The notes below the pieces were generated by a model that was not told the DNA's origin, did no database searches, and saw nothing but the letters and a program-made list of their open reading frames with translations. Positions 28,288 to 32,253 of a stretch of DNA of 43,388 bases are shown one piece after another. Source of the stretch: an uncultured marine group III euryarchaeote (lineage in GTDB: Archaea > Thermoplasmatota > Poseidoniia > MGIII > CG-Epi1); the NCBI GenBank assembly GCA_902531985.1, contig CACAGG010000006.1, positions 1 to 43,388 on the forward strand. The letters run 5' to 3'. Positions within the stretch are counted from its first letter, which is position 1. Each line of letters opens with the position of its first letter. The translations under genes and the position numbers were made by a program.

Positions 28288-29219
28288 TTATTAGCCTCCA
28301 TTTGTTGAATCATCCAATACATGAAACCAGCACATCCTGTAAAAATAAAAGTAAAAACTGCAAAGAGCTCTATACTTCCAATATCGACTTCCCAAGGTTC
28401 AAAGAATGCTATGACATAGTATTTGGTATCGAAGATCAAATAGCTCAACATATCAACTACATGATTTATTGATAGCAACAGTATGTAGTCAGCTTCATCT
28501 ATACCAAATGCATTTAAAATTGTAAAGAAAGTCTCACATACTAAAGAAGTACCATAAACGAACAGAAAAAAAGTACTTGAAGCTATTCCTTCTTTTTTAA
28601 TTAGTGTTGAAAATGTTAATCCAATTATAGAATATGCTCCTGAGTAAAGTATTCCTTGAAGCATGATATTGACAATTAGCCATTTTCTGTCTAATAACCA
28701 TGAAGCTTCTAGGCCATTGCCTGACCACATAGAACTTAGAATCATATAATTTGGTAATGCAGTTACTAACAACAATAAAATAAAAACTGGAATGAATCTA
28801 GCAATAAGGTAATCTAATCTGCTTATTGGTCTTGATAGATATAAATGAATAGATTTATTCGCCATATCATTTCCGATAATGCCACCACTTGCAGTTGCCG
28901 CGATTGCAATTAGAAAGAGTTTAGTACCACCAGCATTTCCTAACAAATCACCGTAAAAATCAAGCGGAACACATCTTTGATACTCATCATTAAGATCTAC
29001 ACAAGGATAATCTTCAGGCTCAATGAATAATATGAATCTAAAAAAAGTTAATAGGTAAACAACAGCTATCATCAAATTTATACCAATACCGTTCCATGTT
29101 CTTAGCGTTAATAAATTATTAAATTTTCTTAAACCCATTCCAAGAACTATCCAAGGTCTTGTTGTTAGGTTTGCATCAAAATCTCTAAAGCGATTTGACA
29201 GCTGGGCTTTTCCTTTCAT
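28284..29219 (-). CDS. ABC-2 type permease (first pair)
   Basis: A 311-residue membrane protein with about six hydrophobic helices. Residues about 120-140 contain GGIIGNDMANKSIHLYLSRP, the coupling motif typical of ABC-2 permeases (gNDm.n.si.lylsRPi). An external loop with two cysteines (YPCVDLNDEYQRCVP) follows the first helix and may form a disulfide. Four-base overlaps with both neighbours show a single transcript. It should pair with the ATPase at 29216. Confidence 0.85.
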   Translation of the reverse strand: MKGKAQLSNRFRDFDANLTTRPWIVLGMGLRKFNNLLTLRTWNGIGINLMIAVVYLLTFFRFILFIEPEDYPCVDLNDEYQRCVPLDFYGDLLGNAGGTKLFLIAIAATASGGIIGNDMANKSIHLYLSRPISRLDYLIARFIPVFILLLLVTALPNYMILSSMWSGNGLEASWLLDRKWLIVNIMLQGILYSGAYSIIGLTFSTLIKKEGIASSTFFLFVYGTSLVCETFFTILNAFGIDEADYILLLSINHVVDMLSYLIFDTKYYVIAFFEPWEVDIGSIELFAVFTFIFTGCAGFMYWMIQQMEANK

Positions 29220-30124
29220 TCAACTATCTCCTGGTAAACACTATCCATCGATTGTGATGTCCTTTCCATTTCATACAACGAGCATTTACTTTTCACAGAA
29301 GCATCGATAATATCATCATAGGTTGAGTTGTCTACATATGGTATTATCAGTGCACGGCCATCGTCTTCTATCGTAATTTTTTTCTTTTTAAGTTCGGAAA
29401 TAAAATTCTCAGATCCCCCTCCTATCCTTACTCGAACGAAATTACTCTTTTCACCTACTATGGCTTTGACGTCTTCTTGCATTTGTAGTTTACCATCTTT
29501 GACAATTATGACGGAGTCGCAAACAGTCTCAACATCTTGAAGGATATGTGTGCTAAGCAAAACTTTAGTGTTGCTTACATCAGTCAATCCATTTATTGTT
29601 TCCAGCATTTCTCTTCTGGCATTAGGATCAAGTCCAGACGTAGGCTCATCTAAAAATATAACTTCAGGCGCGTGAATTAGGCCTTGAGCTAGTTTTATTT
29701 TTTGACGCATGCCTCCAGAATATTCACCAATCAGCCGATACTTCTCTTCACCCATTCGAAGATGTCCTAAAATTTCATGAGTTCTTTCTGTAGCTCCAGC
29801 TACACTCATTCCGGAAACCATACCCATTTCTATCAAAAATCCAACACCAGTCATTTCGTTAGGTATACAGTCGTGCTCTGGCATATAGCCAATTTTTCTA
29901 CGAATCTCAGTAGTATTTTTAGTTAGAGTTTCACCTAGCACAGTAATCTCTCCGCTAGTTGGAGTTAATAATCCAAGAGCAATTTTAACAAACGTACTTT
30001 TTCCTGCACCATTAGGACCCAGAATTCCCACTTTGCCTGCAGGTATTTCTATGGAAAAATCATCTAATGCCTTGAGATTGCCATATTGTTTAACGACGTT
30101 TGTTGCCTTTATCACAGGTATCAA
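29216..30124 (-). CDS. ABC-2 transporter ATPase (first pair)
   Basis: An ATPase of 302 residues starting at TTG. Walker A is GPNGAGKST at 36-44, the Q-loop region IGYMPEHDCIPNEMTG, the signature YSGGMRQK, Walker B VIFLDEPTSGLDP and the switch STHIL. It is the first gene of a long minus-strand run. A CTTTAAGTA element is centred 24 bases upstream of the TTG, supporting that unusual start codon. The Q-loop region resembles that of the ATPase at 27349, so the two ATPases are probably paralogues. Confidence 0.9.
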   Translation of the reverse strand: MIPVIKATNVVKQYGNLKALDDFSIEIPAGKVGILGPNGAGKSTFVKIALGLLTPTSGEITVLGETLTKNTTEIRRKIGYMPEHDCIPNEMTGVGFLIEMGMVSGMSVAGATERTHEILGHLRMGEEKYRLIGEYSGGMRQKIKLAQGLIHAPEVIFLDEPTSGLDPNARREMLETINGLTDVSNTKVLLSTHILQDVETVCDSVIIVKDGKLQMQEDVKAIVGEKSNFVRVRIGGGSENFISELKKKKITIEDDGRALIIPYVDNSTYDDIIDASVKSKCSLYEMERTSQSMDSVYQEIVE

Positions 30125-30143
30125 ACCTTATTTGTAAAACAAG

Positions 30144-30152
30144 TACTTAAAG
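30144..30152 (-). promoter_or_regulatory. TATA box for the ABC-2/dnaJ operon
   Basis: On the minus strand this reads CTTTAAGTA, centred 24 bases before the TTG start at 30124. It predicts a leaderless transcript for the eight-gene minus-strand run. Confidence 0.55.
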
Positions 30153-30176
30153 ATATCAATTGAAAAATTAAATAAT

Positions 30177-30185
30177 TTTATATAT
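30177..30185 (+). promoter_or_regulatory. TATA box for the ribosomal stalk operon
   Basis: TTTATATAT is centred at 30181, so transcription should begin near 30207. That is downstream of the ATG at 30190 and coincides with the first base of the leader stem. Confidence 0.65.
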
Positions 30186-30206
30186 CCCCATGTTTCCGAC
30201 GAGATG

Positions 30207-30249
30207 CCGTAGCAGAGATGTAATCTCGCTTTACTACGGAGGTGAAACC
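30207..30249 (+). promoter_or_regulatory. Structured uL1 mRNA leader with Shine-Dalgarno sequence, candidate L1 autoregulatory site
   Basis: An outer stem pairs CCGTAG (30207-30212) with CTACGG (30234-30239). An asymmetric internal loop (CA on one side, GCTTTA on the other) separates it from an inner stem GAGAT (30215-30219) with ATCTC (30223-30227), closed by GTA. The outer stem takes up the first two G of the Shine-Dalgarno GGAGGTGA (30238-30245). Helix, asymmetric loop, helix is the general form of known L1-binding sites. In Methanococcus, L1 represses the L1-L10-L12 operon by binding its own mRNA. Binding here would mask the ribosome site. The role is inferred. Confidence 0.6.
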
Positions 30250-30888
30250 ATCGCATCAAACAAAGTAAATCAAGTAATTGAGGATGCTCTCAAATCAGAT
30301 AAGGAGCGTAAGTTCGTTGAGACTGTAGAAGTTGCAATAAATCTTCGTGATGTTGATTTACAAAATCCTCAAAAGAGGATTAATGCAGAGGTGGCTCTTC
30401 CCCACGGAAGAGGTAGGCCTTCACGTGTTGCAGTTTTTGCACAGGGTGAAATGGCAGTTATTTCTAAAAAGATAGTAGATACAGTTCTTGGTCCAGAGCA
30501 AATAGATGATCTTTCTGAAAACAAAAGAGAAGCTAAAAAATTAGCTGATAAATTTGATTTCTTTGTTGCAGAAACCGGATTAATGGCTACTATTGGTAAA
30601 AGTCTTGGTGTTGTATTAGGTCCCCGTGGAAAAATGCCTAGACCTATTCCTCCACAAGCAGATATTGAAAGAATTATTAACAGTTTGACTAACTTAGTTC
30701 CTGTAAGGTCGAAGGATCGTCCAACTTTCCATGTACCGTTTGGTAACGTTTCTATGTCACAGGATCAATTAGCTGAGAATCTTGAAACTATTTTGAAGCG
30801 TGTTGAATCTACTCTCGATAGAGGTTCAGACAATATAGCATCAATTTGGGTAAAAACTACAATGGGTAAGGCGGTGAGGTTAGGATGA
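30250..30888 (+). CDS. rpl1: Ribosomal protein uL1, probable ATC start
   Basis: uL1 of 212 residues. Family sequence begins right after the chosen start: VNQVIEDALKSDKERKF, then INAEVALPHGRGR, GLMATIGKSLGVVLGPRGKMP and PVRSKDRPTFHVPFGN. It binds 23S rRNA at the L1 stalk and in archaea also controls its own operon. The reading frame is open from an ATG at 30190, but that adds 20 residues foreign to the family, lies upstream of the predicted transcription start, and has no Shine-Dalgarno. The ATC at 30250 has GGAGG seven bases before it, and no ATG, GTG or TTG in frame lies near. A start at ATC is therefore most likely. The stop overlaps uL10 by four bases. Confidence 0.88.
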   Translation: MASNKVNQVIEDALKSDKERKFVETVEVAINLRDVDLQNPQKRINAEVALPHGRGRPSRVAVFAQGEMAVISKKIVDTVLGPEQIDDLSENKREAKKLADKFDFFVAETGLMATIGKSLGVVLGPRGKMPRPIPPQADIERIINSLTNLVPVRSKDRPTFHVPFGNVSMSQDQLAENLETILKRVESTLDRGSDNIASIWVKTTMGKAVRLG

Positions 30889-31919
30889 AACCTGAAGCAT
30901 TTGTAGCAGATTGGAAACGTAGCGAAGTTTCAGATATACAGAAATTTGTCGAAGGAGCTAATGTGGTAGGTCTTGTTGATGTTACAGGTATTGGAGCGAA
31001 ATCAATGCTCACTATGCGAGCTTCTTTGAGAGAAATGGGTGTAAAATTAAGAATGTCTCGTAACAGACTTTTAAAATTAGCCATTTTTGAAGCATCCAAA
31101 AATAAAAAAGGTATTGACCAAGTTGTTGATGCTTTTGCACCCCGTCAATTAGCTTTACTTTCTTCTGATGAGAGCCCATTTAAAATTTTCCAAATGTTGT
31201 TAGAATCTCAGACGATGGCTCCTGCTAAAGGTGGAGAAATCGCCTCATATAATATAGTTCTTGATAAGGGTCCAACAGCTTTTCCGGCAGGACCTATAGT
31301 TGGAGATTTCCAAAATGCAGGTTTCCCTGCAGCTATTGAAAAAGGAAAAATCGTAATTAGGAAAAAACATACAGCTGTAGCTGAAGGTGAAGTTATTAGC
31401 GCCGAAGTAGCTGCCGCACTTGACAAACTTGAAATTTATCCGATAACTGTTGGAATGCAGTTGTTAGGAGCATTTGATGGAGAAACATTCTACCTTTCAG
31501 ATGTTCTTGACATAGATATGGATGAGTTCCGTAGCATGATACAATCTGCCACAGCTCAGTCATTCAATCTTGCATTCAATACACGTTATTTCACAGGATC
31601 TGTAATGCAACCGTTGCTGTCTAAAGCATATAGTGATGCTTTGGCTGTAGCAGTTTCAACGGCATATCCCTCTGAGTCAACAATCAAGGCTCTACTCTCT
31701 AAAGCGCATGGTGCAATGCTTGGTGTTGCAGGCCACGCCGGCGAGGGAGTCGATGATGAGTTGAAAGAAATGTTGGGTAGTGCTGCATCTGCAGCCGCAG
31801 CCGCACCAGAACCAGTGGAAGAAGCATCATCCTCAGATAAAGAGGATGAAGATGACGAAGAGGAAGAGGAAGTATCTGAAGAAGATACGGCCGCAGGCCT
31901 TGGAGCATTATTCGGATAA
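30885..31919 (+). CDS. rpl10: Ribosomal protein uL10 (P0)
   Basis: The archaeal stalk base protein, 344 residues. The N-terminal rRNA-binding domain includes [15 protein letters not shown] and RMSRNRLLK. The archaeal insertion domain (about 110-200) includes [10 protein letters not shown]. Helical P1-binding spine segments (about 260-300) follow. The C-terminal acidic stretch ends [13 protein letters not shown], the same tail as P1, which contacts translation factors. The start overlaps the uL1 stop (ATGA), with GAGGT just upstream. It binds dimers of the P1 protein encoded next. Confidence 0.96.
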
Positions 31920-31938: not shown

Positions 31939-32253
31939 ATGGAATACGTCTATACGGCAATGTTACTGCATTCAGCAGGAGCAAAGGTTGACGCAAAAAG
32001 CGTCGAGAAAGTCTTGAAGGCCGCAGGCATCAAGGCAGATAAATCAAGGGCAGAGGCTCTTGTAGCTTCTCTAGAAGGAGTCGATATTGAGGAAGCAATG
32101 GCTACAGCCGCCGTCGCCGCACCAGCTGCAGGCGCCGCACCAGCTGCCGCTGCCGCATCTTCAGAAGAGGCACCAGCTGAAGAAGAAGAAGAAGAAGAAG
32201 AAGAAGCAAGCGAAGAAGATACTGCCGCAGGCCTTGGTGCTCTTTTCGGTTGA
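31939..32253 (+). CDS. rpl12: Ribosomal protein P1 (archaeal L12)
   Basis: The acidic stalk protein, 104 residues. The N-terminal dimerisation helices ([20 protein letters not shown] onward) occupy 1-58, followed by an Ala/Pro hinge and a run of nine Glu, then [14 protein letters not shown]. The start at 31939 is set by AAAGGAGG eight bases upstream. The frame is open further upstream into uL10, but that extension is a shadow. Several P1 dimers bind uL10 and recruit elongation factors. Confidence 0.97.

Follow-up and report, generated by a model that had tools for sequence, protein, structure and literature searches.

Known L1 operators and unusual start codons

In the archaeal L1 operon, of which that of Methanococcus vannielii is the type, uL1, uL10 and L12 are encoded together, and the L1 site, which in M. 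vannielii lies within the coding sequence, consists of two helices around an asymmetric loop that imitates the L1 site of 23S rRNA. The autoregulation of uL1 in archaea has been reviewed (PMC10931766): L1 sites in mRNA mimic the 23S site, archaeal mRNAs are controlled likewise, and in Proteobacteria the site is found in the leader before the L11 gene. We describe here a uL1-uL10-L12 operon of Marine Group III archaea with a candidate site of the same architecture. Unlike that of M. vannielii, however, it stands at the leader's 5' end and shares bases with the Shine-Dalgarno site, and the start codon that follows it is AUC. Direct comparison with the Escherichia coli rplK leader revealed a common core, which reads G/GA/G...C/G(n)A/C in the latter (slashes separate helix from loop), although the E. 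coli leader precedes the L11 gene, has a 3' loop of 7 bases, and leads to an AUG start. A survey of ribosomal leaders listed S15, eL15 and L4 leaders among its new archaeal motifs, and no L1 leader (PMC7247131). The L1 operator type is already known, and the Poseidoniia form has no match to any family in Rfam 15, even at E 5; the class-wide hairpin is an additional archaeal ribosomal leader.

With regard to the start codon, bacterial infC, which encodes IF3 and starts with AUU, resembles uL1 in that a gene essential for translation has kept a rare start codon of the AU series and is autoregulated, as is predicted for uL1. Because IF3 itself judges the start codon, and we know of no part of uL1 in start-codon choice, the comparison is only an analogy. 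That AUC adds control to uL1, as an initial annotation of this DNA had suggested, is plausible. Natural AUC starts are, to our knowledge, hardly known. In a reconstruction covering 61,358 ancestral prokaryotic AUG starts, a single one became AUU, and AUC does not appear among the listed changes (PMC5622118). In the literature searched, with most subscription papers outside it, we found no conserved AUC start on an archaeal ribosomal protein, nor any archaeal AUC start, and priority for such a start is not proven.

The uL1 locus of Marine Group III

The window, by which we mean the whole stretch of 43,388 nucleotides that was analysed, encodes uL1, uL10 and P1 in this order on the forward strand, as confirmed with Pfam. 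It stems from a Marine Group III genome (class Poseidoniia); judged by uL1, the closest relatives are genomes bearing the name Marine Group III or Poseidoniia. A divergent promoter region (30125-30249) lies between uL1 and a gene that resembles an ABC-transporter ATPase gene. The features are as follows.

29216-30124, opposite strand to uL1: gene reading as an ABC-transporter ATPase, upstream of uL1
30177-30184, forward strand: TATA element TTTATATA, promoter of the uL1 operon, at a fixed distance from the hairpin across genomes
30207-30212, forward strand: outer stem, 5' strand CCGUAG, pairing with 30234-30239, with class-wide covariation
30213-30214, forward strand: asymmetric loop, 5' side CA; consensus NA, the A invariant in 67 leaders
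30215-30227, forward strand: inner hairpin GAGA-UGUAA-UCUC; the second genus has GGGG with CCCC and GGAG with CUCC pairs instead
30228-30233, forward strand: asymmetric loop, 3' side GCUUUA; first G and last A invariant in 67 leaders
30234-30239, forward strand: outer stem, 3' strand CUACGG, the final two G being Shine-Dalgarno bases 1-2
30238-30245, forward strand: Shine-Dalgarno site GGAGGTGA, full complement of the 16S 3' end GGATCACCTCCT of the same genome
30250-30252, forward strand: start codon ATC, in 16/16 genomes of two genera, seven bases after GGAGG
30250-30888, forward strand: uL1 coding sequence, 212 codons plus stop (PF00687, E 5e-52)
30885-31919, forward strand: uL10 gene, its ATG start overlapping the uL1 stop (PF00466 and PF17777)
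31939-32253, forward strand: gene of stalk protein P1, the archaeal L12 (PF00428)

The uL1 gene was located in 18 of the 21 genomes of the family, one of which is truncated, leaving 17 readable starts. Sixteen of these (11 from the window's genus and 5 from a second genus) are referred to below as AUC genomes, and the third genus, CG-Bathy1, has a single member. The uL1 proteins of the window's genus and the second genus are ~69% identical, and identity for CG-Bathy1 is 56-61%. The leader set comprised 67 distinct sequences, including 40 further Poseidoniia loci beyond those first collected. Apart from uL11, Marine Group III uL1 has its own promoter, which in the window lies within 30125-30249; in Marine Group II, the operator is placed directly behind the gene preceding uL1, which was read as uL11.

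Promoter and proposed mechanism

The TATA 8-mer starts exactly 30 nt ahead of the hairpin in 16/16 AUC genomes; in the third genus, the distance is 28 nt. The sequence between the TATA element and the hairpin differs across the two AUC genera while the spacing stays constant, and the transcript therefore probably begins at the hairpin base, near 30205-30208 as estimated from the TATA spacing. The initial annotation had predicted a transcription start at about 30207, a prediction that the fixed spacing supports.

We propose that the promoter sets the 5' end of the uL1-uL10-P1 transcript at the base of an L1-operator hairpin, and that AUC would be read by the ordinary methionine initiator tRNA, mispaired at the third codon position and helped by the full-length Shine-Dalgarno site. 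When uL1 is in excess of free 23S rRNA, it would bind the hairpin and stabilise the outer stem, which holds the first Shine-Dalgarno bases, so that binding of the 30S subunit would be blocked. AUC may slow the commitment of a bound 30S subunit, thereby giving the repressor more time and making the feedback more sensitive. We estimate the probability of the combined account, i.e., promoter, L1 operator, AUC start and feedback, at about 0.75, in which L1 as the ligand, repression, initiation with methionine and the role of AUC are what we infer. That AUC contributes to the feedback has, in our judgement, somewhat less than an even chance. More tentative still is the idea of a single switch made up of operator hairpin, Shine-Dalgarno site and AUC, through which the amount of uL1 would determine how far a near-cognate start is used. 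That an essential ribosomal gene has a conserved AUC start suggests that initiation in archaea can depend on a codon of this kind, and the system provides a ready test of the interplay between start-codon strength and a repressor hairpin.

Conservation of the AUC codon

Comparison of the readable genomes revealed ATC at the uL1 start in 11/11 members of the window's genus and 5/5 of the second genus. CG-Bathy1 has ATG at the same position and no Shine-Dalgarno site, and Marine Group II uL1 has ATG one codon downstream of it. On the uL1 tree, ATC is accounted for by a single change; support for this is modest (75/78; 80% of bootstrap trees) owing to the long branch of the third genus. The initial annotation had looked to an alignment across Poseidoniia for covariation in the stems and conservation of ATC: the stems covary throughout the class, and ATC is fixed in two genera but gives way to ATG in the third.

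The pattern of codon use indicates that AUC is selected as such at codon 1. In the uL1 genes of the window's genus, ATC is the rarest isoleucine codon (18/164), and it occupies codon 1 in 11/11; across both AUC genera, codon 1 alone of seven invariant isoleucine sites has a single codon (16 ATC), AUU and AUA never occurring there in the 16 genomes. Two of the uL1 genes compared, L001 and L012, use different codons at 102 of 139 identical residues. Between -12 and +5 around the start, the 16 AUC genomes show two variable columns only (GGRGGTGAAANCATCGC), and third-position variation of the ordinary coding type starts at codon 2. This conservation of C in particular suggests that something beyond the mere weakness of the start codon is being kept. 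The block 30238-30254 (GGRGGTGAAANCATCGC) is more conserved in the 16 genomes than a Shine-Dalgarno site and a start codon require.

One could explain the kept C by RNA structure: CAUC or AUCGC would pair with GGUG or GUGA from the Shine-Dalgarno site to form a small second hairpin. Ribosome site and start codon would then be hidden together, and L1 bound next to them would favour the closed state. Folding does yield a weak second hairpin in most AUC leaders (GGUG or GUGA with CAUC or UCGC), and the Shine-Dalgarno site has a mean predicted pairing of 0.76 when the codon is AUC versus 0.59 when it is AUG, but the energy gained amounts to only ~1 kcal/mol. CAUCGC is invariant in 16/16 genomes even though the base two before ATC varies; AUU, however, would pair as well through wobble and yet never occurs, and covariation is impossible here, since the Shine-Dalgarno side cannot change. 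Such pairing could be one reason for the kept C, and we regard it as rather unlikely that AUC is kept for RNA structure instead of for its effect on initiation.

The leader hairpin as a candidate L1 operator

The hairpin at 30207-30239 consists of the outer stem CCGUAG with CUACGG, the inner stem GAGA with UCUC, and the asymmetric loop CA opposite GCUUUA. Taken by itself, the fold in the window exceeds chance only modestly (z -2.1; 6/200 shuffles fold equally well). Judged by comparison, through covariation across the 67 leaders and the model and descriptor searches given below, the hairpin is real and class-wide in Poseidoniia, in agreement with the initial annotation, which had described a folded leader whose outer stem pairs the first two G of GGAGGTGA. 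Of the 670 cells in the hand-corrected alignment of the 67 leaders, 639 are paired. Three pairs vary without a single broken cell: in the outer stem, C-G (43 leaders) alternates with U-A (24) at one pair and G-C (50) with A-U (17) at the adjacent one, and an inner pair is A-U in 60 leaders and G-C in 7. Even the uncorrected alignment contains changes on both sides in 71 cells versus 30 in shuffles, and sliding the partner strand reduces its paired cells from 91% to 61% or less. Owing to a one-position shift in the rows of the window's genus, RNAalifold missed the stem in the uncorrected MAFFT alignment and returned a 3-pair artefact. An outer stem of GAUG (30203-30206) with CAUC (30249-30252), forming a 23S-like site around GGUGAAA, was also considered; it was discarded, since relatives do not conserve GAUG and the predicted transcript start excludes it.

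Between the two covarying helices, the 67 leaders have a loop of 2 x 5 or 2 x 6, longer on the 3' side, and an invariant core, G/NA/G...C/G(n)A/C. The Marine Group II form, between uL11 and uL1, is YYGCGG/NA/GAGG...CCUC/GNNNA/CCGCRG, followed by RGGUGA and ATG. A covariance model was built solely from Marine Group II leaders, i.e., from another order than that of the window. In a search of 508 kb, including the window and 398 kb of other contigs of its genome, this model gave 16 matches, all of them AUC uL1 leaders; the scores were moderate (14-26 bits, the window being weakest with E 2.3), and the strength of the search thus lies in its ranking. On the window alone, the leader ranked first (E 0.2). 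In each of 37 Marine Group II genomes, the whole-genome search with the model found a single site, located at uL1 where its position was checked; under its stricter filters and cut-off, this search did not report the Marine Group III leaders. A descriptor of the core matched a single place in the window, which is the leader, and 4 places in the 398 kb from other contigs of this genome; in an 8.9-kb stretch of E. coli, it matched the rplK leader and one place within rplK. The covariance model (R1) gave no meaningful match by score to 23S rRNA or the E. coli region.

As in L1-operator leaders, the hairpin is located in the 5' leader of an operon containing uL1, and it has two helices with an asymmetric internal loop that is longer on the 3' side. 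The core fits both E. coli sites, namely, that of 23S rRNA (GGUGG/GA/GGCU...AGCC/GACCUUGAAAUA/CCACC) and that of the rplK leader (GGG/GA/GCCUC...GAGGC/GUUAUUA/CCC). The 23S site of the window's genome, read by eye, has the same form (GACGG/GA/GAC...GUC/ACCGAUGAAACA/CCGUC), except that its 3' loop begins with A, where other sites have G. The 3' loop of the leaders is G...A in 67/67. Their 5' loop is GA in 48/67, and the CA or AA found in most of the window's genus is a real deviation from L1 sites. The link to the E. coli L1 sites rests on topology and six bases; it is strong as far as context and topology go, and moderate where sequence is concerned. The initial annotation had taken the leader to be the L1 site; its form is indeed that of such a site, with the two helices, the asymmetric loop and the core common to the E. 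coli sites. Because the hairpin is class-wide and the E. coli rplK leader fits its core, the leader is very probably an L1 operator that overlaps the first two Shine-Dalgarno bases.

The bacterial L10 complex regulates its own operon, and uL10 and P1 are encoded in the same Marine Group III operon as uL1, so the hairpin might be an ordinary leader structure with a ligand other than L1, e.g., uL10 or the uL10-P1 complex. The Marine Group II hairpin, however, stands directly before uL1 and after uL11, and the core fits the E. coli L1 site, which together make such a ligand improbable.

The CG-Bathy1 leader (L017) has kept the operator hairpin while losing the Shine-Dalgarno site and having ATG instead of ATC; a strong site with a weak codon in the AUC genera thus contrasts with no site and a strong codon in CG-Bathy1. 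Marine Group II leaders have a nearly invariant CACGA(A/G) just 5' of the outer stem, which is absent from the window's genus and for which no pairing partner was found.

Position of the translation start

Comparison among genomes places the translation start of Marine Group III uL1 at ATC 30250, where the initial annotation had put it, with correct coordinates and the correct seven-base spacing. Like the AU-series starts of the infC kind, it is a non-canonical codon conserved among relatives, with no canonical alternative. The annotation had also stated that the protein matches uL1 from its first residues, and residues 3-210 indeed align without offset to the residues of the same numbers in a PDB chain of uL1 that is 212 residues long.

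A start elsewhere, at ATG 30190 or another codon in the leader or gene, is highly improbable. ATG 30190 is the sole canonical in-frame start upstream of ATC 30250 in the window, and the frame from it is open in the window and three close relatives; within the window's genus, however, this ATG is CTG in four genomes and has a TAA behind it in three. In eight of the 16 AUC genomes, the frame is closed by a stop 12-15 codons upstream, and none of ATG, GTG, TTG or CTG lies in between; this excludes ATG 30190, which the initial annotation had excluded from the predicted transcription start. In the second genus, it is the hairpin that supplies this stop, as TAG. On the other side, the first canonical codon after ATC comes at codon 23 or later in 13/16 genomes, at codon 48 in the window; codon 5 in the second genus is ATG or GTG in three genomes and GTA in two, far from the Shine-Dalgarno site, so that no other canonical codon occupies a usable position. 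A sequencing or assembly error, in favour of which speaks the origin of the DNA from a metagenome-assembled genome and nothing further, is refuted, as the initial annotation's check on homologues at this position was meant to decide, by the same ATC in all 16 readable, separate species-level genomes of two genera, which come from different projects. In AUC genomes, a gene finder that accepts no starts but ATG, GTG and TTG would put uL1 in the wrong place or cut it short.

Initiator tRNA and start codons elsewhere in the genome

The initiator tRNA in the window's genome is normal, with anticodon CAU and A1-U72. A special initiator tRNA that reads AUC was rejected: the genome, which is 75% complete, shows only an elongator-type tRNA-Ile(GAU) besides the normal CAU initiator. 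The pattern GAGGTGA-N2-6-ATCG, used to look for further AUC starts in Marine Group III, matched beyond uL1 only intragenic sites, tiny frames and chance occurrences in the places read, and its reversed control also matched in most genomes. A scan for Shine-Dalgarno sites with near-cognate codons in 441 kb of the window's own genome gave no second convincing case. Start-codon use may be relaxed in this genome; a mechanical count of codons after strong Shine-Dalgarno-like sites in the same 441 kb yielded ATG 21, TTG 18 and GTG 7.
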